Shown here piece after piece: positions 16,418 to 31,145 of a stretch of 64,000 nt of DNA. This DNA is from Mucilaginibacter rubeus (GTDB lineage Bacteria; Bacteroidota; Bacteroidia; Sphingobacteriales; Sphingobacteriaceae). The stretch is taken from NCBI RefSeq assembly GCF_014643835.1, contig NZ_BMKD01000002.1:868001-932000 (forward strand), in the 5' to 3' direction. The translations under genes and the position numbers were made by a program. The notes beneath the pieces are model-generated. The model was not told the origin of the DNA, did no database searches, and saw only the letters and a program-made list of their open reading frames with translations. Each line of letters starts with the position of its first letter. Position 1 is the first letter of the stretch.

Positions 16418-19400
16418 TTATTTGGAAGAGTTTTTTTCAAACTCGTTCATACGATACGAAATTTGAAAATTTGCGCGGTGTTTTTTGATAAAATCAGACG
16501 GATTGATCCCGTATTGTTTGAAGAATTGTTCGCGAAAGTATTTCACATCGCTAAAGCCAACCTGGAATGCAGCTTCATTAACATTACAATTGGTTTGAAT
16601 GAGTAATTCGGCAGCTTTGCGCAGGCGCACAAACCGGATAAAGTTATTGACCGATTGCCCCGTGATGTTTTTAAGACGTTTAAATAAGGTTGCATAGCTG
16701 ATACCAATCTCTTTGGCCAACACATATACATCAAACTTATCGTCGGTAAAATAATGCTCAATTACCGAAATACAATTATTCAGAAAGTCCTTATTTTCCT
16801 GTGAGATACTGCGACCGGTGCTTTTCTTGGTAACCTCCTTATAAAAGTAATTCTGAAGCTCGGTTTTATTGCGTAGCACACTTTTTACGCGCGCTATGAG
16901 TAATTCTTTATCAAAAGGCTTGCGCAAAAAATCAATGGCCCCTTCCTCTATACTCTTAAGCATTATATCCGGCGTTGTATCGCCGGTTAAAAGGATAACA
17001 GGGATATGGCTTATGGCCTGGTCTTCTTTAACAATCCGGCACAGTTCAAGCCCGCTGATACCATCCATCACGATATCGCTTATAATTACATCGGGGATAT
17101 GCTTCTTGATAAGTTCAAGGCCTGTGGTACCGTCCTGCGCCTCGATTACGTTATAGCCCGGCGTAAAAATCTTTTTGATGTATGAACGGATCTGGTCGTT
17201 ATCATCAATCACCGTAAGCGTATGCCTGGCCGAACTGAAGAGCTCCAATCTCGCCAAATCCTCGTCTTCCGGCACAATATCTTTGTTATCTTCGCTAATA
17301 AGCTCATTTACATACGTGTAATCCGGCACAACATCATCGACAATAACCTCTCCCGAAAAATGAGCTTTACCCTTTGGCAACGCAAGCACAAATGTAGTGC
17401 CCCCCTCGGGGTTGTTTGAGTAGCTAATATTACCTTTATGACTTTCTATAAAAACCTTAACCAGGTATAAACCTATGCCAAAACCTTTGCGGAAGTAGTT
17501 TTTATCCTTTGCCTGGTAAAATTTATCAAACAGCCTATCGCCGGCCTCGGTATTTATGCCTATGCCATTATCGATTACTTTAAAATATACATAAGTATCG
17601 TCCTGTTCAATTACAACATGGATAGTACCACGGTCGGGAGTAAATTTTATAGCGTTTGAGATGAGGTTAAACAAAGCTATTTCTATCTTTTCCAGGTCGC
17701 AGTACACCTCAATGGCATCTGAGCCGCCCTCGAGGGTATAACGAAGATGTTTAATTTTGGCTTGCTGAATAAAGCACGAATAAACCTCGTTACATAAAGT
17801 CACAAAATTTAACCTGCTTACTTTCAGCGAAGCATTTTCGCTTTCGGTTTTCCTGAAAAGCAGTAAATGATCAACCAAACCAAGCAGTCGGCGCGCATTG
17901 CGGTAAATTGTGCTCAGCTCTTCTGCATTTCCTTTACTTTGATTAAGAAGGTCCTTTATAGGGTTAATAATAAGCGTTAACGGCGTTCTGAACTCATGCG
18001 ATACATTGGTAAAGAAAGTCAGTTTCTTTTCGTTGAGCTCCTTTTCTTTCTCCACCTGCAGGTTGGCCAGCTTTACCTTAAACCTGAGCCTGGCCTGGTT
18101 TAATCTGTACCTGTAAAACGCGTAGCCTATAGCAACTATTAATGACAGGTAAACTATATAGGCCCACCAGGTACGATACCAAGGTGGCAAAACAATAATT
18201 TTAATGGTAATGGGTGGCGCTGTCCACTGTCCTTCCGTATTGGTAGCCCTGATTTTCAGTGTATAGGAGCCTTCATTGAGACGCGAAAAGTAGGCCGACT
18301 TTAGCTTGCCTACATAGTTCCAGCCATGGTCCCAGCCTTCAAGGTAATATGCATAGGATATCTTTTCGGGAAATGAATATTCAAGCGCTGTATAACTGAT
18401 GTTCAGCGTTGCCTGGCTAAACGGGATGGTTATATTTTTTAATTCATTTAACGGCAGTTTTGGGCCATATACACTATCGAGCTCAATTGAAACGTTGTTT
18501 ATTTTAAAATCAGAAAGCATGAGCTGGGGCTGGTGTGCATAAGGAGCGATACTATCGGGCGAAAACAAATTAAACCCTTTGATGCCGCCGAACAACATTT
18601 TGCCCGATGCCAGCTTTAAGGCCGCGTTGTAATTAAACTGGTTGCTTTGCAAACCATCAGATGCATTGTAATTGGTGATCTTTTTTGTGATTACATTAAA
18701 ACAGGAAAGGCCATTATAAGTACTGCACCATAAATTGCCGCTGTTATCAACCAATATATTCAGTACAGTATTGCTCGGTAACCCTGCCGATTCGGTGTAT
18801 CTTTTATACTGATGGGTGTTGGTATTATATTGAAGCAGCCCTCCGCCTTCGGTACCAATCCATAAATTGCGTTTATTATCTTCGGTAATAGCCCTGATGG
18901 CCTGGCCGATAAAATAAACCTGGTGTTTTTTATGCTGAACATCAATTTTGATGAGGCGACTATAATTTCCCGCCCACAAATTACCTCTATGATCTTCAAA
19001 AAGCGCGTGGAGGTTTACCAGGCTGTTATCAAAAAGTTCAAACTGATCTTTGGCCCGGTTGTACAAAAACAATGCCCCTCCCCAGGTACTGCCTGCCCAC
19101 AAACGGTGCTGCGAATCTTCATAAAGCTTCCAAAAATTCCGTTCTTCTTTTTTATCCACCGGGTTATAACAGCTATAATGTTTAAACCGGCCGGTTGCAT
19201 TATCAAACGCATCAATGCCACCATTAAAGGTTGCCACCCAAATCTTATTGGTATAGTCGTTTAAAATACTTACAACAAAATTACTGCTGATAGATCCCGG
19301 AATATTTTGGTGTACATAGGCAGTAAACGTATTTGTTTTAGTGTTCCAGTAATTTAACCCGCCGCCGTCAGTGCCAATCCATACATTATGCTGCTTATCT

Positions 19401-20488
19401 TCGCAAAACGACAGGATAAAATTATTGATAACACTATTTTTATTAAAAGCATCATGCGCGAACACATGAAAAGAGGCCGGTTTGCGGTCAATAATGTTCA
19501 CGCCACCCCGTAAGGTTGCTATCCAGATCCGGGATTCATCATCCTCATAAACAGCATCAACAGCATCGCTCCGTAAGCTATTAGGTGTTTCGCCTGCATT
19601 GATATAGATGAGCGTATTGGTCTCCGGGTTCCAAACTTTAATCCCTCCCCCATTGGTTGCAATCCAGATATCGCCGTTTCTTGTTGTGGTGAGGCTAAAA
19701 ATATTGTTGTTGGTCACTTTGTTAAGCCCGTTCTCCAGCCTCGTAGTTTTCAAGGTGACAGGATCATACATCCATAATTCATTACCTGCGCCTGCAATAA
19801 TTTTACCTTTTCCATCAATGGTCATACAACCTGCATATGCCAGTTCTGGTGATACAATTTTTATCTTTTCAGCCGGTGCATCGTATCTGCCAAGCCCAAC
19901 CCCGTTTACCAGAATCCAGATAGTGCCCTGCGTATCCATCTGGGCAGCAATGGTATTAAACTGTTGTTTTTTGACATCATACAGGATCTCTTTGCCAATG
20001 GTATCTGTTTTCCCAAATTTTAGGAAGCCGTATGTACCATTGGTAGCGAAAATATTACCCGACCGATCGGAGACTATCTCATTGATATTAAACCCAATTT
20101 TAATTGGCTCATGCTTTTCATTATAACAATAAAGCGCATGAAAGCGCGAGTCGGCATAATCAAAATACATGAGTCCTTTTTCGGTTCCTACATATATTCG
20201 TCCGCCGCTGGCGTTAATGGATTTAATGTGATTATTGACGAGCGAGTTTTTATCTCCCCAGATGTTCCGGAAGACTTTAAATGTGTAACCGTCATACCTG
20301 TTGAGCCCGTCATAAGTTCCCATCCACATAAAGCCATATTTATCCTGTGTAATACAGGTTACCGCATTGTTTGAAAGACCATCTTCAATACCTAAATACC
20401 TAACTGGGAAACCAGGGCCTTTTGCTATGGCTGCTAAAGAATAGCATATAAAAAAAATGAGCAAAAAGGCCTTTAATCGCTGAAACAT
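16418..20488 (-). CDS. hybrid two-component system sensor/regulator (HTCS)
   Basis: The start is placed at MFQRLKAFLLIFFICYSLAA, a signal peptide; an ATG 90 bases upstream gives a non-secretory extension. The roughly 1356-residue protein has a periplasmic two-propeller sensor of Reg_prop repeats (about 25-700, e.g. TGLSNN-like GIEDGLSNNAVTCITQD, MWMGTYDGLNRYDG), a Y_Y_Y domain and a membrane helix (WWAYIVYLSLIVAIGYAFY). These are followed by a HisKA domain with NVSHEFRTPL (His about 831), an HATPase domain (LISNAIKFTPDRG, DNGIGI, GFGIGLYLVK), a receiver domain (Asp about 1138 in ISDIVMDG) and an AraC HTH. It binds an oligosaccharide in the periplasm and activates the adjacent SusC/SusD genes. 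Confidence 0.95.
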   Translation of the reverse strand: MFQRLKAFLLIFFICYSLAAIAKGPGFPVRYLGIEDGLSNNAVTCITQDKYGFMWMGTYDGLNRYDGYTFKVFRNIWGDKNSLVNNHIKSINASGGRIYVGTEKGLMYFDYADSRFHALYCYNEKHEPIKIGFNINEIVSDRSGNIFATNGTYGFLKFGKTDTIGKEILYDVKKQQFNTIAAQMDTQGTIWILVNGVGLGRYDAPAEKIKIVSPELAYAGCMTIDGKGKIIAGAGNELWMYDPVTLKTTRLENGLNKVTNNNIFSLTTTRNGDIWIATNGGGIKVWNPETNTLIYINAGETPNSLRSDAVDAVYEDDESRIWIATLRGGVNIIDRKPASFHVFAHDAFNKNSVINNFILSFCEDKQHNVWIGTDGGGLNYWNTKTNTFTAYVHQNIPGSISSNFVVSILNDYTNKIWVATFNGGIDAFDNATGRFKHYSCYNPVDKKEERNFWKLYEDSQHRLWAGSTWGGALFLYNRAKDQFELFDNSLVNLHALFEDHRGNLWAGNYSRLIKIDVQHKKHQVYFIGQAIRAITEDNKRNLWIGTEGGGLLQYNTNTHQYKRYTESAGLPSNTVLNILVDNSGNLWCSTYNGLSCFNVITKKITNYNASDGLQSNQFNYNAALKLASGKMLFGGIKGFNLFSPDSIAPYAHQPQLMLSDFKINNVSIELDSVYGPKLPLNELKNITIPFSQATLNISYTALEYSFPEKISYAYYLEGWDHGWNYVGKLKSAYFSRLNEGSYTLKIRATNTEGQWTAPPITIKIIVLPPWYRTWWAYIVYLSLIVAIGYAFYRYRLNQARLRFKVKLANLQVEKEKELNEKKLTFFTNVSHEFRTPLTLIINPIKDLLNQSKGNAEELSTIYRNARRLLGLVDHLLLFRKTESENASLKVSRLNFVTLCNEVYSCFIQQAKIKHLRYTLEGGSDAIEVYCDLEKIEIALFNLISNAIKFTPDRGTIHVVIEQDDTYVYFKVIDNGIGINTEAGDRLFDKFYQAKDKNYFRKGFGIGLYLVKVFIESHKGNISYSNNPEGGTTFVLALPKGKAHFSGEVIVDDVVPDYTYVNELISEDNKDIVPEDEDLARLELFSSARHTLTVIDDNDQIRSYIKKIFTPGYNVIEAQDGTTGLELIKKHIPDVIISDIVMDGISGLELCRIVKEDQAISHIPVILLTGDTTPDIMLKSIEEGAIDFLRKPFDKELLIARVKSVLRNKTELQNYFYKEVTKKSTGRSISQENKDFLNNCISVIEHYFTDDKFDVYVLAKEIGISYATLFKRLKNITGQSVNNFIRFVRLRKAAELLIQTNCNVNEAAFQVGFSDVKYFREQFFKQYGINPSDFIKKHRANFQISYRMNEFEKNSSK

Positions 20489-20786
20489 TCGCCGTATAAT
20501 CAATAACTGGTTGTTTTCAAAGGTATCAAAATGTAGCAGGCTTTCATTCGCAAATTTTATCCTGTTTTGGTACATCATGAATTACAATACATCAAAAGTG
20601 TATCAGAAAATATAAAGAAAATAGAGCAACCAGCAACGACAAATAATTAACAATTAATTATATTTGGGAGATTGTAAACCTGTTCTTAATAAACATTATT
20701 GTGTATGACCGTCATCCCAAAAAATGGGAGAATGCAGTAATTATGCATTTTAAATTATTGCAGGCAACACTACTTATTGAAAACAT
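20489..20786. promoter_or_regulatory. divergent intergenic region with short leader ORF (20743-20790)
   Basis: The region separates the HTCS and the 7TM receptor. A TATATTTG at 20659-20666 fits the Bacteroidota -7 element in plus sense, but no TTG is placed correctly upstream, so it is only a weak promoter candidate. CCCA-AAAAA-TGGG near 20714-20726 is a small inverted repeat. An ATG at 20743 opens a 15-codon frame (MHFKLLQATLLIENI) whose TGA stop overlaps the TTG start of the receptor (TTGA), a geometry suited to translational coupling. Confidence 0.35.
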
Positions 20787-22700
20787 TTGATTAAACATTT
20801 ACCTGCATTGACTAAGTACTTATTTATTTTTTATGTATGCCTGTGGGCACTTACTTCCCGTGCTCAAAATATACTCCGGGTTGATAAAGGTATTCAGCAA
20901 CATAAGTTTACCCTTAACGAGGTAAAATACCTACAGGATAGCACCGGGAAACTAACTTTCCGGGATATACAGGAAATGAGCTCCTCTTTTACCGAAAACA
21001 GCTCATACTACCCCAGCAATCACCATAAAAACTCTGCTTACTGGTTTCGCGTGCGGATGTACTTTAGCGAACCGGTAAACAACAACAGCATTATTGAGTT
21101 GTTTGATCAAACAACCGATGAGGTAACGGCTTATATGCCTGATGCGGCGGGTAACTATATCAAAAGTGAATCGGGCGCTAACCTTAATTTCAATAGCAGG
21201 CTTTTCCATCATAAAAACTTTGAGTTTCTGATCGGGGATACCAACCCTGGTTATCATACCTATTATTTCAGGATCAAATCGCACAATGCGGTGAACGTTA
21301 TCATAGTTTATCGTACTATTAATTACTTTATTCATTATGCGCTTAATGAATACTTAACCTATGGCTTGTTTTATGGCATGATCCTTATTTTTTGTTTCCA
21401 TAACCTGCTTATGTTCCTTGCGGTTAAAAAGAAACAATACCTGTACTACGTATTTTACATTTTAAGCGTAGGCCTTTACGAAATGAGTGCCGATGGCATC
21501 GCGTTCCAATATTTATGGCCGGGAGCGCCAGCTTTAAATAATTACGGGAACGGCACTGCCCTATATTTTACCAGTATTTGCGCCCTGATATTCAGCAAGG
21601 AGCTATTGCAGGTTAAAATAAAAGCTCCGCAGTTTAACAGGCTAATCAATTGTGTGATATTGCTGCGCACCACCTATTTTCTGTATTGCCTTATCTTCAA
21701 CAATTCGCTGTTTGTATATAAGTTTGTTGAAGTAATCCCGCTATCGCTGGCTTTTGCTACCGGTGTTTATATCTATAAAAACGGCTACAAGCCGGCCCGC
21801 TTTTTTGTGCTGGCCTACTCAATTTTGTTTGTGGGCTTTATAGTTAAAGCGTTTACCGCCCTTGGTTACGCTTACTTTTTACCTGCACCTATAAGTTACT
21901 ATAGCCTTAGTTTTTGTTTTATTATTGAGATGATACTGTTATCATTTGCCATTGGCGACCAGGTAAGGATCCTGCGGAAAGAGAAGGATGCAGCCCATGA
22001 AGAAACCATACGGCAAATGCAATTGAACAGCCAGTTGAAGGATTCAATAAATGAGGAATTGGAGCGCCAGGTTGAAATCCGCACACACGAACTGGTTGAA
22101 AAATCAAACGAGGTGAGGCAACAAAGTCAGATCATCGAAAACCAAAACAAAGAATTGTTACGGGCCAACGAGCAGCTGGAAAAGCAGGCCGGTGAAATAT
22201 TAAGAATGAATATTTTACTTGAAAAAGATAATGTCCAGCTCAAAACAAACATTGAAAAGGTTACCGAATCACGAGCGTTATCCACAGAGTTGGGCTATGA
22301 AGAATTCAGCGCAAAGTATCCCGACCAGGAAACCTGTTTTAAATTCCTGTCGGCTTTAAAATGGAAAGATGGCTTTATCTGTACCCGCTGCTCAAATACA
22401 ACATATTGTGCAGGAAGGTTGCCGCACAGCCGCCGGTGTACTAAATGCAGTTATGAAGAATCGGCATTGCATAATACCATATTTCAAAACAGCCGCATTC
22501 CTATCAATAAGGCTTTTTATCTAACCTATCTTATTTACAGTACTAACGGCACGATATCATCGCACCAGCTTTCCGAAAAGCTCGATATCCGCCAAAGCAC
22601 CTGCTGGACTTACGCCATCCGTATAAAGAAAGTATTGCAGGAAAAGAAAAAATCAAGGAAAAAGAATGATCAGCAGGGATGGACGGTGCTGGTGATGTGA
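20787..22700 (+). CDS. 7TM-DISM membrane receptor fused to an IS1595-type transposase zinc-ribbon/HTH region
   Basis: The start is a TTG; an in-frame TGA lies three codons upstream, so no earlier start exists. The 637-residue protein has a signal peptide (to about 27), a periplasmic 7TMR-DISMED2 jelly-roll domain (about 30-170), a seven-helix 7TMR-DISM membrane domain (about 190-395) and a long coiled coil (about 400-495). The C-terminal module starts near Tyr504 and has paired cysteines C532/C535 and C551/C554, then HNTIFQNSRIPINKAFYLTY and a helical KLDIRQSTCWTYAIRIKKVL stretch. This module matches the zinc-ribbon N-terminus of IS1595 transposases, and no DDE nuclease follows. A membrane-bound DNA-binding regulator is inferred; targets are unknown, the downstream SusC/SusD being the obvious candidate. 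Confidence 0.85.
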   Translation: MIKHLPALTKYLFIFYVCLWALTSRAQNILRVDKGIQQHKFTLNEVKYLQDSTGKLTFRDIQEMSSSFTENSSYYPSNHHKNSAYWFRVRMYFSEPVNNNSIIELFDQTTDEVTAYMPDAAGNYIKSESGANLNFNSRLFHHKNFEFLIGDTNPGYHTYYFRIKSHNAVNVIIVYRTINYFIHYALNEYLTYGLFYGMILIFCFHNLLMFLAVKKKQYLYYVFYILSVGLYEMSADGIAFQYLWPGAPALNNYGNGTALYFTSICALIFSKELLQVKIKAPQFNRLINCVILLRTTYFLYCLIFNNSLFVYKFVEVIPLSLAFATGVYIYKNGYKPARFFVLAYSILFVGFIVKAFTALGYAYFLPAPISYYSLSFCFIIEMILLSFAIGDQVRILRKEKDAAHEETIRQMQLNSQLKDSINEELERQVEIRTHELVEKSNEVRQQSQIIENQNKELLRANEQLEKQAGEILRMNILLEKDNVQLKTNIEKVTESRALSTELGYEEFSAKYPDQETCFKFLSALKWKDGFICTRCSNTTYCAGRLPHSRRCTKCSYEESALHNTIFQNSRIPINKAFYLTYLIYSTNGTISSHQLSEKLDIRQSTCWTYAIRIKKVLQEKKKSRKKNDQQGWTVLVM

Positions 22701-23651
22701 GAAGTAGCATTTCTTCTTTGTAGGATTTGGGGAGTGTTATTCGTTGACATTTTTCGCTGTTTGTATATAGTCTAAGTAAGTCGATGCCTCCGAAACCCTC
22801 GCGGATCCAAGCTATTCCATAAAATTGATTTGTCGTTTAATCAGCAAGGTGTATTGTTTTGCCCCTCTGGGGCAAGGGGTATTTCAATAATCTCACTTGC
22901 TACAAACCTTTTGCACCTCTGGTGCACTTGTCCTTGGCAATTAATACCTGTTTGTTAAATTATAAAAGTCCCCCAGAGGGGGAAAAGGTTTGTAGAAAAA
23001 AACGTCCTATCCCCTACCCCCAGAGGGGCTCAACTCACGCACTTTACCCAATTTGACTATTGATTTTGTGGGTTAACTTAAATCTGCGAGAGCCCCTGAG
23101 GGAACAGCCCCTTTGTATTATCAATAATTCCTTTGATTAATTCATTGGTAAGGAACGTATTGGCTTTTCAATAGCGATTTTCTCCTCTAACAGGACGCGC
23201 CCCTCCTGTTTCCATCCCCCAAACCTTATTTCTGTTGCAATAGGGCAGGTTTTAACCACTCTCCAATCCCCTCAATTGTCATTTTTTTAAATATTTTCAC
23301 TTTTTTTTCTTGTTCACCAAGCGTATCACCCGAAAAAAACAACGAGGTGTAACCTGCTGTAAATACGCAACTTCAACGTTTGAGTTTTTCGTTATCAAAA
23401 CGTATCAAAATATATTTAAACATCTTAAAATCAATAACTTACACACAATAAACCTATTGCATTATTGGTTTATTCCACGTTAAATTTACCCCCACCAATA
23501 CCAATTAGTAATACGCTTAACCAACAAATCGCTTATATGAAGTAAAGATTGCACAGCAGTTATTACCTGCATCGCTATGGTGTAAACCAGGTTTGCCTAT
23601 AGCCCATTCCGGCAGCCACGGGCTGCTTAACCAATTAAACAGCAATTAATT
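22701..23651. other. 951-base gene-free region upstream of susC (PUL 2)
   Basis: No convincing gene is present; the only ORF here (65 codons) runs through palindromic repeat sequence. The first half holds a cluster of GC-rich palindromes (22861-23028, listed separately). The second half (23280-23651) is AT-rich and is presumably the susC leader. A CGTTTTGATACGTTTT-like stretch near 23390-23410 (plus strand TCAAAACGTATCAAAA) was noticed, but no operator or -7 element could be assigned. Confidence 0.5.
22861..23028. repeat. cluster of C4-5/G4-5 palindromes inside a larger inverted repeat
   Basis: Four short palindromes with a three-base centre occur in about 170 bases: GCCCCTCTGGGGC (22861-22873), GCACCTCTGGTGC (22913-22925), CCCCCAGAGGGGG (22970-22982) and CCCCAGAGGGG (23018-23028). 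The second and third lie inside a perfect 13-base inverted repeat, CTACAAACCTTTT at 22900-22912 against AAAAGGTTTGTAG at 22983-22995. No transposase is nearby apart from the zinc-ribbon of the receptor. It resembles a REP-like or small non-autonomous element. Confidence 0.6.
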
Positions 23652-26600
23652 ATGAAGAAAAAAATTACGCTAATTTTTGTTTTACTTATTACAATACTAA
23701 CACGCACGTTCGCACAGGACATTACCGTGAAAGGTATTGTTAAAGACAACCAGGGTCTGCCAATACCTGGCGCCACTGTAAAAAACAAGTCAACAGGTGC
23801 GGTAACCGTTACGGATTTAAAAGGCAGCTATTCTATCACAGCCAACGGCAACGCTACACTTGTTTTCAGCTTTGTGAGTTCGGCCACACAAGAGCAGCCG
23901 GTTAATGGACGCACAACAATTGATGTAACACTGGCCGATGCCAACAAACAGCTGGAAGAAGTTGTAGTAATAGGTTACGGCACACGTGCCGTTAAAGATG
24001 TTACCGGTGCCATCAGCAGTGTTAAGGCCGAGAAATTAGAAAATGAACACCCGGCCAGTGCTACGGATATTATCAGGGGCAATATCCCGGGTATATCGGT
24101 TGCCTTGAATACCTCGGCCAAAGGCGGCGGTACCGGCGATTTGCAGATCAGGGGTAAAGCCTCCCTTTCGGGCAACGTACAACCTGTTATCGTATTGGAT
24201 GGGGTTATTTATCCGGGTCAGCTGGCTGATATCAACCCTAACGATATCGACCGTGTCGATGTGTTACGAGATCCAAGCGCACTTGCCGTATATGGTGCAC
24301 AATCTGCCGGTGGTGTTGTAGCCATTACTACCAAAAAAGGTAAAAAGGGTGGTACTCAAATCACTCTGAATGCCAATTTCGGTATTGCTCAACTATTGCA
24401 AAATCAAAAATACTATACAGGCGATGGCTTCCTTAACTGGCGTGCCGACGGAGCCCGTAGTTCTAATACTTCAAATCCTTATTATTATTACAGCAACCCC
24501 AACAAACTGCCTGAGGGTGTAACGCTTGACCAGTTCCTAAACGGTGCTACAGGCGATCCTACCACCATCTGGCTGCAGCGTTTGGGCTTATTCCCTAACG
24601 AGATTGCCAACTACCAGGCTGGTAAAATGACCGACTGGTCAAAACTGATTTTCCGCAATGGCTTCCGTCAGGATTATACAGGCAGCTTTTCGGGAAGTTC
24701 AGAAACCGTTAAATATTATGTATCGGGCAACTACACTAAAAACCAGAACCTGATCCAGGGCGGACAGTATACCGACGGCCGTTTCCGCGTAAACCTGGAA
24801 GGTAAGGCAGCTAAGTTTTTAACCCTGGGCGTAAATGCACAGTTTGCAAGCCGTGATGAAGGCGCTGCCAGTACCTCGCTAAGCGGTCAGGGCATTGATG
24901 GTACCGAAGTCGACTGGACGCAGATCATTAACTCATCTCCTTATGGAGATGTGTACAATGCCGATGGCTCATTACGCCGTATCGATACCGATGACAGCGG
25001 TTTAAATCAGCGTAACCCATTTCTCGGGAACCGCTATAATCAAAACGTAGCGGTTCAAAACACGCTGTTCTCGGTACTTTTTGCCCGTTTGGATCTTCCT
25101 TTCGGTATTAAGTATACGGTGAATTATGCACCAACCATCGAATCGTACCGAAACTTCTTTTTCCGCCCGGTAGCTAACCCTAATGAACTTTCGGGTGGTA
25201 CTGCCATCCGTACACAGGAAAACCGCTACAGGTACAACCTCGATAATATTTTAAGCTGGAACAAAACATTTGGCATACATAGCTTTGATGCAACCTTCCT
25301 GCTTAACAAAGAAAAATACCAAACCTGGTATACCAATGCTTCAAACACACAGTTAACCCCAACCGATATTTTGGGTTACCACAACATAGGCGCCGGTAAT
25401 TTACCTGTTGAAAGCAGCGATGACCGAATTTATAATGCCGATGCCATCATGGGCAGGATCAACTACACCTTGTTGGGCAGGTACATTGTTACCGCCACTG
25501 TACGCCGCGACGGTTTCTCTGCATTTGGCTTGCAGCATCCACGCGAGGTATACCCTTCTGGAGCAATTGCCTGGGTATTCAGTGATGAAAGCTTCATGAA
25601 AGGTGACGCTTTTAAATGGCTTGACTATGGTAAATTACGTTTCAGCTACGGTGCAAATGGTAACCGTACCTCTACAACCACTGCCGATCCATCTATCTCA
25701 TTAGCTGTATTGGGTGGTATCAAATATCCAACAGCAAACAATTCAGGTACTGTAACCAACAACAGCGGCATTTATGTAAGCACGCTACAAAATGCCCAGT
25801 TAAAATGGGAACGTACTGTAGGTCCTAACATCGGTTTGGATTTCACCATATTACACAACAGGCTTAGCGGTTCGATAGATGTTTATGACCGTAAAACTAC
25901 CGACCTTCTGGTTAAACGAAGTATTCTTGATGTTCAGGGCTACAACTCATCGGGCGATTTAGTTGGTGGGGCTAACAACTCCAACCCATACACCAACATC
26001 GGCCAGGTTAACAACAAGGGGTTTGAAATTTCATTGGATGGCAAGATCATTAAAAGCGAAAACTTTAACTGGAATGCCAGTGGAACGTTTTTCTTAAACC
26101 GCAACAAAATTGTTCACCTGTACGGTGCATTCCCGGTTACTGATGCCAACGGCGTTACCACCAATGTTGAAAAAGATGATATCGGCAACGGCTGGTTCAT
26201 TGGTCACGATATCAACGCTGTTTGGGATTACAGGATCCTGGGTGTTTGGAAAACCGCAGATGCTACTGAAGCAGCTAAATACGGCGCTAAACCCGGTGAT
26301 TTTAAACTGCAGGATGTAAACGGCGATTTTAAATTCACCAATGATGATAAGCAATTTCTGGGTTCAACCAATCCACGCTTTAGCTGGTCTTTACGCAATG
26401 ATTTCAATTTCCTTAAACATTTCGATGTATCGTTCCTGCTGGTATCAAGCATTGGTCAGTTAAGGCAATACAACCAGGCTTTAAACAACCCGGGCAGCGT
26501 AGGCTTTGCGCGTATGAACTCATACGTATTGCCTTACTGGACACCTGATAACGAGATTGACGATTACGCCCGCTTAAACTCAGGTTCATCAGGCACAACC

Positions 26601-26819
26601 ATTAATGTTTGGCGTAAAGCTTCGTTTGTAAGGCTGCAAACCGCTTCTATCGGCTACACTTTCAGTCCGCAGCTCATCAAACGCCTGGGCATATCAAGCG
26701 CCAAATTATTTGTGAATGCAAGCAATGCAGCTGTGTTTTCAAGCTGGCCGCTTTGGGATCCGCAAAACGGCGGTCCTACTCCAAGATATTTATCAGCCGG
26801 GTTTAACGTAGTTTTTTAA
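23652..26819 (+). CDS. SusC/RagA-family TonB-linked outer-membrane transporter
   Basis: The 1055-residue protein has a signal peptide (1-21), a carboxypeptidase-regulatory-like domain (VKGIVKDNQGLPIPGATVKN, about 25-44), the EEVVVIGYGTRAVKDVTGAI stretch (about 102-121), a plug with VIVLDGVIYPG and VVAITTKKGKKGG, and a long barrel ending SAGFNVVF. It lacks an STN domain. It is followed 16 bases later by a SusD gene, so the two form a transporter pair. No glycoside hydrolase accompanies it. Its regulator is not obvious; the 7TM receptor 951 bases upstream on the same strand is the nearest candidate. Confidence 0.96.
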   Translation: MKKKITLIFVLLITILTRTFAQDITVKGIVKDNQGLPIPGATVKNKSTGAVTVTDLKGSYSITANGNATLVFSFVSSATQEQPVNGRTTIDVTLADANKQLEEVVVIGYGTRAVKDVTGAISSVKAEKLENEHPASATDIIRGNIPGISVALNTSAKGGGTGDLQIRGKASLSGNVQPVIVLDGVIYPGQLADINPNDIDRVDVLRDPSALAVYGAQSAGGVVAITTKKGKKGGTQITLNANFGIAQLLQNQKYYTGDGFLNWRADGARSSNTSNPYYYYSNPNKLPEGVTLDQFLNGATGDPTTIWLQRLGLFPNEIANYQAGKMTDWSKLIFRNGFRQDYTGSFSGSSETVKYYVSGNYTKNQNLIQGGQYTDGRFRVNLEGKAAKFLTLGVNAQFASRDEGAASTSLSGQGIDGTEVDWTQIINSSPYGDVYNADGSLRRIDTDDSGLNQRNPFLGNRYNQNVAVQNTLFSVLFARLDLPFGIKYTVNYAPTIESYRNFFFRPVANPNELSGGTAIRTQENRYRYNLDNILSWNKTFGIHSFDATFLLNKEKYQTWYTNASNTQLTPTDILGYHNIGAGNLPVESSDDRIYNADAIMGRINYTLLGRYIVTATVRRDGFSAFGLQHPREVYPSGAIAWVFSDESFMKGDAFKWLDYGKLRFSYGANGNRTSTTTADPSISLAVLGGIKYPTANNSGTVTNNSGIYVSTLQNAQLKWERTVGPNIGLDFTILHNRLSGSIDVYDRKTTDLLVKRSILDVQGYNSSGDLVGGANNSNPYTNIGQVNNKGFEISLDGKIIKSENFNWNASGTFFLNRNKIVHLYGAFPVTDANGVTTNVEKDDIGNGWFIGHDINAVWDYRILGVWKTADATEAAKYGAKPGDFKLQDVNGDFKFTNDDKQFLGSTNPRFSWSLRNDFNFLKHFDVSFLLVSSIGQLRQYNQALNNPGSVGFARMNSYVLPYWTPDNEIDDYARLNSGSSGTTINVWRKASFVRLQTASIGYTFSPQLIKRLGISSAKLFVNASNAAVFSSWPLWDPQNGGPTPRYLSAGFNVVF

Positions 26820-26835
26820 AGGAGGGATTTAATAC

Positions 26836-28710
26836 ATGAACAAGATAAACAAAAACATCATGGCTGCGGCTTTAGCAGCGGCAACCATATTTATAACCGG
26901 GGGTTGTACCAAGCGGGCCGATCTGTATCCGCAGGCACCTTCAAAATTTACACCCGACGTAACTTATACCTCACCTGCTGCATTTAAAGCAGCTTTGGCT
27001 ACATTAAATGTAAGCGTCAGATTTGAATACTTTGGCGACTCGGCCCCGTTGCTTACCGAATCGATATTTACCGATGCCGCGGTTGAGGGTACTACCGATA
27101 AAACCACACCTGCACAGGATCTGAACGCGCGTATCACCCCTACCGCCAACCTAAACAGTGACGACTATAACAAGATAGGTCGCTACTGGAGCGCATGGTA
27201 CCAGGGCATCCATGACTGTAACGTTATTTTATCGAGGCTGGATAACATTAAATGGCCTTCAGACGCCGATAAAAACCTGGTAAAAGCGACAGCTTTATTT
27301 CATCGTGCTTACCGCTACTATCGTTTAGTGCATGAGTTTGGCGATGTGCCATTGCTGCTAAAAGAAGAAACTGCGGTAAACACCGGCTACTTCAGTACGC
27401 AGCGTATCGTTATCCTGAAGCAAATGAAAACAGACCTGGAGTTCGCCGTAGCTAACCTTACCGATGCGAACGCTAAAGGCGATATCTCCAAAGGCGGTGC
27501 TGCTCACCTTTTAGCTAAAGTTGATTTGGCACTTGGTTTATTTGATGATGCCATTGCGGCCGCCAACGTTGCCATCAACGGCCCGTATCACCTCATGACC
27601 AATCGTTTTGGTATAGTTGCGGGCGATGCTTCAAAAAACATCATCTGGGACCTTCACCGACCCGAAAACAAGGCTTTAGGAACAAATGCCGAGGCTTTAT
27701 ATGTAGTACTTGACCGCGAAACACTTGACGGCGCTACGCCAAACGGATCACAGGTGATGAGGAACTGTGTGCCGATGTGGCATAACGGTACTATACTTAC
27801 CCCCGGAGCGCTGAAACCGGGCATTTCAGATAAAGTAACCGAAGAATTCCCGCTTACTTTATGGTATGGCCGTGGTATTGGTCGTTTACGCGGTACGCCT
27901 TATGCTACCAAATACATCTGGACAGATAATACCGACTTAAGGCACGCTCCCGGAAACTGGATGAACATGACTGATCTGGTTTACAATAGCCCGGCCATTA
28001 AAACCTCCGATCCGGCATGGTATGGCAAGCATCTTGAGCAATATACCGATGCTAACGTTAAGCAACGCTTCCTGAATGGTGCAAAAGATACCATCCGTGC
28101 CTGGTTTGGCTGGCCGCATTACAAAGTGTTTATTGGCTCGGGCCCTATCGCGCTTGATAAATGGTGGAGCCCGCCGCGTGGTACCAACACCGACTGGTAT
28201 GTTTTCCGCTTAGCCGAAACCTATCTGTTACGTGCCGAAGCCTACGTATGGAAAGGCCAAACCGCACTTGCTATGGATGATATCAACAAAGTAAGGGCAC
28301 GTGCAAATGCACAGTTGTTAACAGATCCGGGCAAAGTTAATATCGGCACTATACTTGACGAACGCCAGAGAGAACTGTATTGGGAGGAGCCACGTAAAAC
28401 TGAGCTTACCCGTATCGCTTTCATCTTTGCGCAAACAGGAATTGCCGCTTATAATGGAAAAAGCTACAACGTAGCTAATTTTTCAACAAGCAACTTCTTT
28501 TACGACAGGATCATGGAGAAGAACGACTTCTATAAAAACCCTAATGTTGTAACCAATTCGGGTAATCACTATACTATTTCGCCATACCATGTTTTATGGC
28601 CTGTCCCGCAAAGCGAGATCGACCTGAATGTAAATGGTCATATTAACCAGAGCAAAGGATACGCAGGTTCAGAAACCAATATCCCGCCTCTTGATAAAGT
28701 AGTACCATAA
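26836..28710 (+). CDS. SusD/RagB-family outer-membrane lipoprotein
   Basis: The 624-residue lipoprotein has a signal with lipobox TGGC (Cys24). Typical SusD features are WSAWYQGIHDCNVILSRLDN (about 117-136), KNLVKATALFHRAYRYYRLV (about 149-168) and the C-terminal RLAETYLLRAEAYVWKGQ, INKVRARANAQ, ILDERQRELYWEEPRK. The end is atypical in length, with a tail after QSEIDLNVNGHINQSKGYAG. It is longer than the PUL 1 SusD (540), as is common where extra surface loops bind ligand. It partners the SusC 16 bases upstream. A terminator-like hairpin at 28735-28770 closes the transcript. Confidence 0.95.
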   Translation: MNKINKNIMAAALAAATIFITGGCTKRADLYPQAPSKFTPDVTYTSPAAFKAALATLNVSVRFEYFGDSAPLLTESIFTDAAVEGTTDKTTPAQDLNARITPTANLNSDDYNKIGRYWSAWYQGIHDCNVILSRLDNIKWPSDADKNLVKATALFHRAYRYYRLVHEFGDVPLLLKEETAVNTGYFSTQRIVILKQMKTDLEFAVANLTDANAKGDISKGGAAHLLAKVDLALGLFDDAIAAANVAINGPYHLMTNRFGIVAGDASKNIIWDLHRPENKALGTNAEALYVVLDRETLDGATPNGSQVMRNCVPMWHNGTILTPGALKPGISDKVTEEFPLTLWYGRGIGRLRGTPYATKYIWTDNTDLRHAPGNWMNMTDLVYNSPAIKTSDPAWYGKHLEQYTDANVKQRFLNGAKDTIRAWFGWPHYKVFIGSGPIALDKWWSPPRGTNTDWYVFRLAETYLLRAEAYVWKGQTALAMDDINKVRARANAQLLTDPGKVNIGTILDERQRELYWEEPRKTELTRIAFIFAQTGIAAYNGKSYNVANFSTSNFFYDRIMEKNDFYKNPNVVTNSGNHYTISPYHVLWPVPQSEIDLNVNGHINQSKGYAGSETNIPPLDKVVP

Positions 28711-28869: not shown

Positions 28870-29985
28870 ATGGGCCTGTTCAATATCCTTCGTAACGAAT
28901 TTATAGATGTAATAGAGTGGGTTGATACCACCCAGAATACGCTTGTATGGAAATTTCCGCGCCATGATAATGCCATAAAGATGGGTGCAAAACTCATTGT
29001 TCGCGAATCGCAGGCCGCTGTTTTCATGAACGAGGGACGCATCGCCGATGTATTTACTCCCGGTACTTATGAGCTTCAAACGCAGAACATGCCTTTGTTA
29101 ACCACCCTAATGAGCTGGAAATATGGCTTTGAAAGCCCGTTTAAAGTTGATATATTCTTCGTAGGCCTGCGTCAGTTCACCAACCAAAAATGGGGTACCA
29201 AAAACCCGGTAATGATCCGCGATGCTGAATTTGGGCCGGTACGGCTGAGGGCATTTGGTTCGTTTAACTTTAAGGTTCAGGATCCTAAAGTATTTATTAA
29301 GGAAATCGCCGCCACTAATCCCGATTTTATCATTGAAGATATCAATGAGCAGTTGCGGAACACCGTTGTTTCGCGGGGGATGGATGCCGTAGCCGAATCA
29401 AAGATAAACGTGCTTGATCTGGCAGCCAACTACAACGAAATGGGCAAATTCATAACAGAATCTATCCAGCCCGATTTCGCTGAGCTTGGTTTAAACCTAA
29501 CCAAACTATTAGTCGAAAATATCTCCCTGCCGCCCGAAGTTGAGCAGGTGCTTGATAAACGCAGCGAAATGGGCATATTGGGTAATCTCGGCGCTTATGC
29601 GCAGTTTCAGGCTGCCAATGCTATTGAAAAATCTGCCGAAAATACCATTGGTGGTAACTTAGGAGCTGCCGGTATGGGTTTGGGTGTTGGCGCTGCGATG
29701 ATGGGCCAGGTTGGCAATATCTTTCAGCAAAATCAGGTTAGTCCTAATAATACCGGTAGTGATATACCACCTCCTCCACCCCTGCCGGGCATCCAATATC
29801 ATATTGTAAAGGATGGAAAATCAGACGGGCCGCACTCTATAGATAGCATTAATACTATGATCGCCAGCGGAACCTTAAGCAGGGAAAGCATGATTTGGAA
29901 AAAAGGAATGGCTGCATGGGCGGTTGCATCATCTGTTGAAGAGATTGCAGATTTGTTTAATAATGTACCTCCACCGATAGCCTGA
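28870..29985 (+). CDS. SPFH-domain protein with C-terminal GYF_2 domain (YdjI-like)
   Basis: The 371-residue protein has no signal peptide. Residues 1-280 form the SPFH/virion-core-like domain seen in B. subtilis YdjI: FIDVIEWVDTTQNTLVWKFP, VRESQAAVFMNEGRIADVFT, FGSFNFKVQDPKVFIKEIAA and LLVENISLPPEVEQVLDKRS. A glycine/alanine-rich segment (GGNLGAAGMGLGVGAAMMGQ, about 262-281) is followed by PPPPPLPG and a GYF_2/DUF4339 domain (about 313-368, WKKGMAAWAVASSVEEIADL). YdjI helps recruit PspA-type proteins to membranes in Bacillus, but no PspA gene is near. With the following zinc-ribbon gene (32 bases later) it is probably a two-gene membrane-stress module. Confidence 0.88.
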   Translation: MGLFNILRNEFIDVIEWVDTTQNTLVWKFPRHDNAIKMGAKLIVRESQAAVFMNEGRIADVFTPGTYELQTQNMPLLTTLMSWKYGFESPFKVDIFFVGLRQFTNQKWGTKNPVMIRDAEFGPVRLRAFGSFNFKVQDPKVFIKEIAATNPDFIIEDINEQLRNTVVSRGMDAVAESKINVLDLAANYNEMGKFITESIQPDFAELGLNLTKLLVENISLPPEVEQVLDKRSEMGILGNLGAYAQFQAANAIEKSAENTIGGNLGAAGMGLGVGAAMMGQVGNIFQQNQVSPNNTGSDIPPPPPLPGIQYHIVKDGKSDGPHSIDSINTMIASGTLSRESMIWKKGMAAWAVASSVEEIADLFNNVPPPIA

Positions 29986-30017
29986 TCTGCAACTATTCCT
30001 AAATCTATATTTTCGAG

Positions 30018-31145
30018 ATGAACAACCAGGTTAATCCGTCAGCAATAAACAATTCTTTAAATTGTTCGGGCTGCGGAGCATTACTGCACTTTAATCCCGG
30101 CACTCATAATTTGCTGTGTGATTACTGTGGCGTGAGCAACGCCATTGAAAGTGCCCCCGACAGCCGCGATATTCTATCTTATGATTATGAGGAATTTGTC
30201 GCCGGTATTGACAACAATAAACAAAGTGCCGATCTTAAGGTAGTGAATTGTAAAAACTGCGGCTCACAAACCATCCTCGATCAGTTTGTAACCTCGGATA
30301 AATGTCCGTTTTGTACAGCTCCCCTGGTATTGGACCTTGAAAGCGGACAGCAATATGTGCCGCCTCATTATATTTTGCCATTTGCCGTTACCCAACAACA
30401 GGGTGTTGATTTTTTCAAAAAATGGCTTAAAAGTCTTTGGTGGGCGCCAAATGACCTGGCTAAAAAGGTAAGCGATGCATCATCAGCACTAAAAGGTGTT
30501 TACCTGCCACACTGGACATACGACACCTATACCATAACCGATTATAGCGGTGAGCGCGGCGATTATTACTATACCACCGAAACTTATACCGAAACCGTCG
30601 ACGGAAAAACGCAAACCAAAACAAGGCAGGTACGCCATACTGACTGGTCGTACGCTTCGGGAAGAGTAGAGTGCGATTTTGGTGACTTGTTGGTACCCGC
30701 CAGCAACTCACTGCCTGAAAAAACGCTTACCAAACTCGGGCCCTGGAATTTTAATATGCTGGTTAAGTTTGATGAACGTTATATGAGCGGCTTCCGTTCC
30801 GAAACTTACCAGTTAGGCCCGGAACAAGGTTTTACTAAAGCGGCCGAACAAACTGCTGGAGCGATAAATTCGGCCATACGAGACGACATAGGCGGAGACG
30901 AGCAAAGAATCGACAGCACCGATACCCAATATCTTGATAAAGCTATAAAATACCTGATGTTACCGGTTTGGGTAAGCGCCTATAACTACAATAACAAGAT
31001 TTATCAATTTACAGTTAATGCCAGCACAGGCGAGGTTATCGGCCAGCGCCCTGTGAGTGCAATGAAGATAATACTTGCTGTGTTGTTTGTAATAGCCTTG
31101 ATAATAATTGGAGTGATCCTATACCAAAATGCTCATCCTGCATAG
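30018..31145 (+). CDS. membrane protein with two TFIIB-like zinc ribbons (YdjG-like)
   Basis: The 375-residue protein has two four-cysteine zinc ribbons: C16/C19/C34/C37 and C78/C81/C96/C99. A long middle region follows, of the type annotated in databases as a primosomal-N'-like or YdjG zinc-ribbon protein (LPFAVTQQQGVDFFKKWLKS, GVYLPHWTYDTYT, DFGDLLVPASNSLPEKTL, LMLPVWVSAYNYNNKIYQFT). One C-terminal transmembrane helix (about 346-366, IILAVLFVIALIIIGVILYQ) leaves the ribbons in the cytoplasm. B. subtilis YdjG likewise pairs with the SPFH protein YdjI. The name DNA-helicase-like, sometimes transferred to such proteins, is not supported here. Function is inferred from the pair only. Confidence 0.8.
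   Translation: MNNQVNPSAINNSLNCSGCGALLHFNPGTHNLLCDYCGVSNAIESAPDSRDILSYDYEEFVAGIDNNKQSADLKVVNCKNCGSQTILDQFVTSDKCPFCTAPLVLDLESGQQYVPPHYILPFAVTQQQGVDFFKKWLKSLWWAPNDLAKKVSDASSALKGVYLPHWTYDTYTITDYSGERGDYYYTTETYTETVDGKTQTKTRQVRHTDWSYASGRVECDFGDLLVPASNSLPEKTLTKLGPWNFNMLVKFDERYMSGFRSETYQLGPEQGFTKAAEQTAGAINSAIRDDIGGDEQRIDSTDTQYLDKAIKYLMLPVWVSAYNYNNKIYQFTVNASTGEVIGQRPVSAMKIILAVLFVIALIIIGVILYQNAHPA

Follow-up and report, generated by a model that had tools for sequence, protein, structure and literature searches.

The window, a 64,000-nucleotide stretch of the Mucilaginibacter rubeus genome, contains a gene (20787–22700, + strand) that probably encodes a membrane-embedded one-component transcription activator of SusCD-type polysaccharide-utilization loci (PULs), built from a transposase. 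The protein joins a periplasmic sensor and seven membrane helices to an IS1595-type zinc ribbon and helix–turn–helix (HTH), it recurs in related bacteria, often in front of SusC genes, and a conserved candidate operator, AAGCGTATCA, lies upstream of these proposed targets.

A 7TMR-DISM receptor with an IS1595-type output domain

The reading frame, supported by ORF, Pfam and NCBIfam analyses and by its relatives, is intact, encodes 637 amino acids and opens with a TTG start, which is also found at the corresponding place in the relatives L031–L034. Pfam assigned residues 45–173 (20919–21305, + strand) to the periplasmic 7TMR-DISMED2 domain (E = 1.2 × 10−25; 90.5 bits against a cut-off of 22) and residues 188–392 (21348–21962, + strand) to 7TMR-DISM_7TM (E = 3.2 × 10−42; 145.2 bits against a curated cut-off of 29), matches that identify the window protein as a member of the 7TMR-DISM receptors with their typical extracellular domain. 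A full AlphaFold model of the monomer (mean pLDDT 80.3) places an N-terminal helix, a beta-rich domain and the membrane helices in that order, the last membrane helix continuing as one long predicted helix at residues 367–497 (21885–22277, + strand). This helix of about 130 residues, in which confidence is low from residue 463 and pLDDT is below 50 across most of 463–499, reads as a predicted coiled coil. In Foldseek searches, the best PDB matches of the model were to the RetS periplasmic domain (3jyb, E = 5.3 × 10−6; 2xbz, E = 1.1 × 10−5), followed by carbohydrate-binding modules at E near 0.01 amid unrelated matches; the presence of these modules hints at a sugar ligand.

The C-terminal piece comprises an IS1595-type zinc ribbon with two CxxC pairs (residues 512–556; 22320–22454, + strand), recognized by Pfam, alignment and profile–profile comparison, and an IS1595-type HTH region (residues 568–624; 22488–22658, + strand), recognized by the NCBIfam IS1595 transposase model NF033547 and by the helices of a C-terminal model. 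The Pfam profile Zn_ribbon_IS1595 scored 25.0 bits on the whole protein (E = 1.9 × 10−5), slightly below its cut-off of 25.4, and 28.0 bits on the C-terminal piece alone; residues 568–624 aligned with positions 1–58 of the 215 in the NCBIfam model at 23–26 bits against a cut-off of 75. Taken alone, these single zinc-ribbon and NCBIfam scores are weak. The model of the C-terminal piece had a mean pLDDT of 87.4, with helices at 75–87, 94–101 and 105–125 in the numbering of that piece, and sequence comparison found no solved structure resembling it (best E = 0.89). Neither DDE_Tnp_IS1595 nor a kinase or receiver domain was found in the window protein by Pfam at E values up to 10. By its architecture the protein is thus a one-component regulator, with a sensor and a putative DNA-binding output in one chain that lacks a phosphorelay domain. 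The first-pass annotation had described just such a frame at these coordinates, with DISMED2, seven helices, a long coiled coil and a nuclease-less C-terminal piece with two CxxC pairs, and the Pfam matches and the AlphaFold model bear this description out.

Conservation and origin of the output domain

When 37 C-terminal domains were compared profile to profile (hhalign) against 12 IS1595 transposases, they matched with 100% probability (E = 7.9 × 10−41) over 122 columns. In L122, an intact 302-residue transposase that is 46% identical to the fusion C-terminal domain over query residues 8–124, the match stops at residue 135, nine residues short of the nearly invariant D144; the DDE domain of L122 occupies residues 140–273 (Pfam, E = 1.6 × 10−23). 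The zinc ribbon and HTH are thus common to IS1595-family transposases and the window protein, but the transposases carry the module at the N terminus of a DDE nuclease, whereas the fusion carries it at the C terminus of a receptor and has no nuclease. Because the nuclease is missing, the window protein, as read from its sequence, is not an IS1595 transposase. A maximum-likelihood tree placed all 52 fusion domains on one side of a branch (99/97) and 19 IS1595 transposases on the other, with L122 among the transposases nearest to the fusions; some transposase branches were long and their order is unsure. This topology fits one domestication of the IS1595 module and, with the profile comparison, confirms the homology to IS1595 transposases first proposed for the output domain.

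Scanning contigs with the 139 C-terminal residues turned up 205 relatives, of which the best 80 were kept; the 7TM part lay in the same frame in 79 of these. The remaining one, L060, is truncated by the end of its contig, and the L044 frame terminates early within the C-terminal domain. Cysteines 532, 535, 551 and 554 were invariant in all 45 full-length proteins aligned (from the window and 79 available relatives), as were C517, C606 and W607. IS1595-like matches, transposases included, were present in 30 of 60 relative genomes, and the fusion, judged by frames of 630–688 residues, in 24. Across the class, 74 of 395 genomes had a match, fusions and transposases mixed, and 16 had the fusion (frames of 620–720 residues), distributed over families f1, f12, f15, f36 and f49; six fusion proteins from the last four of these families contained all three Pfam domains, with the zinc ribbon below cut-off in two. 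At the level of the order, 137 of 300 genomes had a match at E = 10−40 or better and are termed fusion genomes here, a definition by match level rather than by a frame check in each. The best E in every one of them was 10−57 or lower, compared with 5.6 × 10−42 for the best transposase in the class search, and among the matches listed their frames spanned 615–698 residues with one exception of 356 (G693). The survey of other genomes that the first-pass annotation had proposed therefore found the same fusion widely, and its concern that the 3′ part might be unique to this strain is dispelled by the relatives and by the class and order surveys.

Five genomes of the genus contained ten 7TMR-DISM_7TM proteins, six of which are fusions by position. 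Among the others, L141, L148 and L149 had kinase domains in Pfam scans, and L150 contained kinase and receiver-like sequence, recognized by eye only. Separately, one genome (G377; L166–L173) had ten IS1595-like matches, and the eight compared were about 66–83% identical over the parts that aligned, which sets them apart from recent copies of a single element.

Linkage to SusC and SusD genes

In the window, the fusion gene is followed on the + strand by its proposed targets, a SusC-like TonB-dependent transporter (23652–26819) and a SusD-like protein (26836–28710), with families assigned through their clusters, c1 and c2. A divergent hybrid two-component regulator (HTCS; 16418–20578, − strand), assigned through cluster c20, lies on the other side. 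Past SusD, two more co-directional frames of 371 and 375 residues occupy 28870–31145, the second with CxxC pairs in its translation.

We examined the neighbourhoods of 81 loci (80 relatives and the window), counting the next frame if it was at least 130 residues long. The next gene was a co-directional SusC in 40 loci and a co-directional member of the GH30 cluster in 10, and SusC occurred anywhere in the stretch in 50, making it the commonest family after the fusion, equalled by no other. These locus counts show the linkage to a SusC/SusD pair expected of a PUL regulator. Other neighbour families, each named from one Pfam-scanned member, included GH16, GH5, GH3, GH2, alginate lyases and a PL6-type chondroitinase B. 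The background density of SusC was at least 34–44 matches per genome in five genomes of 5.0–7.6 Mb (scoring stopped at 44 of 79–175 first-look candidates per genome), and at such numbers a random gene would seldom stand in front of SusC. In loci from the other families, a SusC match lay downstream of the fusion in 9 of 12, the three f12 loci having a GH16 match and no SusC; in three further f1 loci SusC was found in two. In all three f12 loci (L151, L152 and L153), the fusion is also preceded by a frame of 1,499–1,776 residues that matches nothing in the set.

A candidate operator upstream of the proposed target genes

Counting k-mers without a preset pattern in the 450 nt immediately preceding the SusC, GH30 or GH2 gene (53 loci, or 35 after removal of near-duplicates) revealed an 8-mer core, AAGCGTAT, in 33 of the 35 non-redundant intergenic regions versus 0.43 expected from first-order shuffles. 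The core also occurred in 6 of 45 regions ahead of the fusion gene (0.47 expected) and is thus not strictly confined to the downstream region. Allowing one mismatch, the 10-mer AAGCGTATCA occurred in the 53 regions at 92 sites directed toward the target gene and 6 in the opposite direction; 42 regions had at least two sites, 8 had one and 3 had none. The sites were direct repeats, with a spacing of 79 in 15 of the 42 multi-site regions and 87–93 in 25 (L053 and L069 fit neither), and the second site extends rigidly into a 44-bp composite, AAGCGTATCA-N22-ATCAGTTATTTA (N22-ATCA).

In the window, the k-mer and site searches located candidate operator site 1, an exact AAGCGTATCA, at 23319–23328, and the composite pattern located candidate site 2, with a one-mismatch core, N22 and ATCA, at 23398–23441; both are on the + strand and are followed by TTG-N21-TAAATTT (23457–23487, + strand), which conforms to the Bacteroidota-like promoter pattern TTG-N18..23-TAnnTT. 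The site pair was present in 33 of the 35 non-redundant regions, and in 24 of these 33 the −7 element lay 80–83 bp from the start of site 2, compared with a mean of 0.20 and a maximum of 3 in 500 shuffle runs; a previous count, made on 28 selected rows, found 19. The −7 element was at 92 in three of the 33 and at 70 in one, about one helical turn off, and five lacked a match to the promoter pattern. As a target of the fusion, the SusC/SusD pair at 23652–28710 gains support because the conserved composite site stands upstream of it.

Further sequence elements were noted around these sites. A one-mismatch copy, AAGTGTATCA, lies at 20596–20605, in the gap that separates the fusion gene from the divergent HTCS, making autoregulation possible. 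In L069, the intergenic region ahead of SusC contains a perfect palindrome of two AAGCGTATCA half-sites head to head. The inverted-repeat search in the window, which covered 22700–23500, found a cluster of G+C-rich palindromes of the CCCCTCTGGGG type (arms of 16–33 nt) at 22856–23034, in the interval from the fusion gene to the operator; L031 and L032 contain comparable sequence, which is not evident in L033 and L034. An RNA element in 20500–24000 was rejected, as its two Rfam matches were far under gathering scores. We also considered whether the operator derives from the terminal repeats of the donor transposon, an idea that was not supported: the terminal repeats of the transposases examined were unlike AAGCGTATCA, and exact AAGCGTATCA was absent from 14 stretches around related IS1595 transposases, with six one-mismatch matches in five of the stretches, two of them in identical copies. 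Inverted repeats were sought in 6 of these 14 stretches; the single long one that flanks a gene (L176, 53 nt, 74%) differs from AAGCGTATCA.

The site co-occurs with the fusion

Twenty upstream regions of unlinked SusC genes (1.1 kb each, three genomes) contained the 8-mer on either strand in two cases, the 10-mer with up to one mismatch in four and the two-site pair in none. Within the 81 loci, strict sites (the 10-mer and three variants) numbered 129 in intergenic and 8 in coding sequence, and an intergenic strict site was present in the stretch examined in 66 loci and absent in 15. These controls and the shuffles led us to reject a chance k-mer. The loose pair AARCGTAT-N69..87-AARCGTAT was discarded as too loose alone: its reversed control matched many genomes of the same genus, and of its own 56 matches in genus genomes 16 lay within 2.5 kb downstream of a fusion and 40 elsewhere.

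The composite was more discriminating. It occurred at 17 sites in 13 of the 60 relative genomes, with none for the reversed control, and 12 of the 13 have the fusion; G010, without a match, is 58% complete. Across the order, 74 composite sites (reversed control, 0) were found in 65 of 300 genomes, all of which fall within the 137 fusion genomes; the composite was in none of the 163 genomes without a fusion-level match, and its strict form was absent from 72 of the 137. Fisher's test gave p = 1.4 × 10−27, ignoring kinship, a value that overstates independence because the genomes and loci are related. The co-occurrence counts are likewise not phylogeny-independent; the pattern was derived from loci overlapping the test set, and GH30 and SusC orthologues share promoter ancestry. 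Relative to the fusions listed, at least 55 of the 74 sites had a same-strand fusion no more than 3 kb upstream, and 19 did not. We examined the next frame for 39 sites (17 + 22, including 30 of the 74 order-level sites), and all preceded a SusC, GH30 or GH2 homologue. Included among the 39 are 10 of the 19 sites away from listed fusions, which suggests that the fusion may act in trans on unlinked targets.

Families outside the main group varied. The co-directional intergenic sequence retrieved for f12 and f15 contained no site, even with one mismatch allowed; f49 had one such site in one of three loci and f36 had an exact site, and k-mers made no alternative operator evident in f12, f15 or f49. 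The recognition-helix stretch reads RQSTCW in the main group, f36 and f12, RQGTCW or RQATSW in f49, and differs in f15. An initial idea that the site and the RQSTCW helix go together was withdrawn: because f12 keeps the motif and lacks the site, site presence does not simply follow RQSTCW.

Alternative explanations

Could the C-terminal domain bind DNA as a repressor or a membrane anchor? The sequence contains no direct sign of activation, and we regard this reading as unlikely, albeit the most credible of the alternatives. Activator sites usually lie upstream of a promoter without overlapping it, and site 2 precedes the promoter-like elements at a phased distance and does not cover them. Slightly less credible is that the fusion is a membrane receptor-regulator whose neighbouring AAGCGTATCA sites are read by another protein, either the divergent HTCS or an unlinked factor. 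The HTCS adjoins the fusion in the window, any co-inherited regulator would show equal co-occurrence with the site, and annotation of the loci covered gene families with more than one member; yet homologues of the window HTCS occur in only 5 of 81 loci, against 66 with a strict site, no family follows the fusion as often as SusC (50 loci), and genomes lacking a fusion-level match also lack the composite (0 of 163).

A third reading, in which the zinc ribbon and HTH have given up DNA binding and serve protein contacts or metal sensing, is improbable. The two extra invariant cysteines, C517 and C606, besides the four zinc ligands would suit such a role, but the domain is strongly conserved and a loss of DNA binding would leave the co-occurring site unexplained. 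A functionless chance read-through into a decayed insertion sequence might be entertained given how common IS1595-type transposases are in the class; the presence of the fusion in five families, with invariant zinc cysteines and a single clade, leaves this reading a negligible probability, and we consider it excluded by conservation. A transcription activator remains our preferred reading.

Discussion

These observations support the earlier reading, in which the protein is a one-component transcription factor tethered to the membrane and has an output derived from IS1595; DNA binding, dimerization and coiled-coil signalling are inferred. In the mechanism that we propose, the RetS-like periplasmic domain would sense a ligand, probably an oligosaccharide that the SusCD pair takes up, and the seven helices and long coiled coil would relay the dimer state to the cytoplasmic end. 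There, the nuclease-less zinc ribbon and HTH would bind the direct-repeat pair of AAGCGTATCA sites that precedes the susC promoter. The composite site, the nearer of the two to the promoter, keeps a fixed helical phase relative to the −33/−7 elements. Because of this fixed phase, we propose that the bound protein contacts RNA polymerase and would thereby switch on, rather than repress, SusCD and other glycan-degrading genes. Judged by its position and candidate operator, the fusion would work like a PUL regulator.

More broadly, we think it probable that a 7TMR-DISM receptor captured an IS1595 zinc ribbon and HTH once, long ago, and gave rise to a widespread Bacteroidia class of membrane-bound PUL activators, alongside SusR, HTCS and ECF/anti-sigma systems, and that the Sphingobacteriaceae–Chitinophaga part of this class reads paired AAGCGTATCA direct repeats, one of them promoter-phased, with the promoter held at the inner membrane through the long coiled coil, and also acts in trans on GH30 and SusC genes that are not linked to it. 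If true, this would show bacteria recruiting the DNA-binding half of a transposase as the output of a membrane receptor. The recurrence of the fusion and its matching site in related bacteria points to an unnoticed kind of membrane gene switch and provides a candidate regulator for numerous SusCD and glucanase loci in Sphingobacteriaceae and Chitinophaga; with receptor, candidate operator, promoter and targets named together, each step between the periplasmic signal and the gene can be tested in soil bacteria that grow in culture. No account of this fusion was found among the titles and abstract openings surveyed from the open PMC literature, which does not in itself prove novelty, and the terms 7TM and transposase are absent from PMC11216935.

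The fusion resembles several known systems and differs from each. Like RetS and other 7TMR-DISM receptors, it has DISMED2 and 7TM domains, and the RetS periplasmic domain is its best structural match. Outputs of such receptors include cyclase and LytTR domains, and those in the same genomes have histidine-kinase outputs, whereas the window protein ends in a transposase-derived DNA-binding domain. Proteins with a ChiS-family DNA-binding domain are likewise sensors that end in that domain, and a figure legend lists 7TMR-DISM among their architectures (PMC8092284); they belong to proteobacterial genomes, however, and have an unrelated cryptic HTH for which section 10 of that paper mentions no transposase origin. 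Among PUL regulators, SusR (which is inner membrane-spanning), hybrid two-component systems and ECF-sigma/anti-sigma pairs are encoded beside SusC/SusD, as the fusion is, but they have outputs other than that of the fusion (PMC11216935, PMC10449523).
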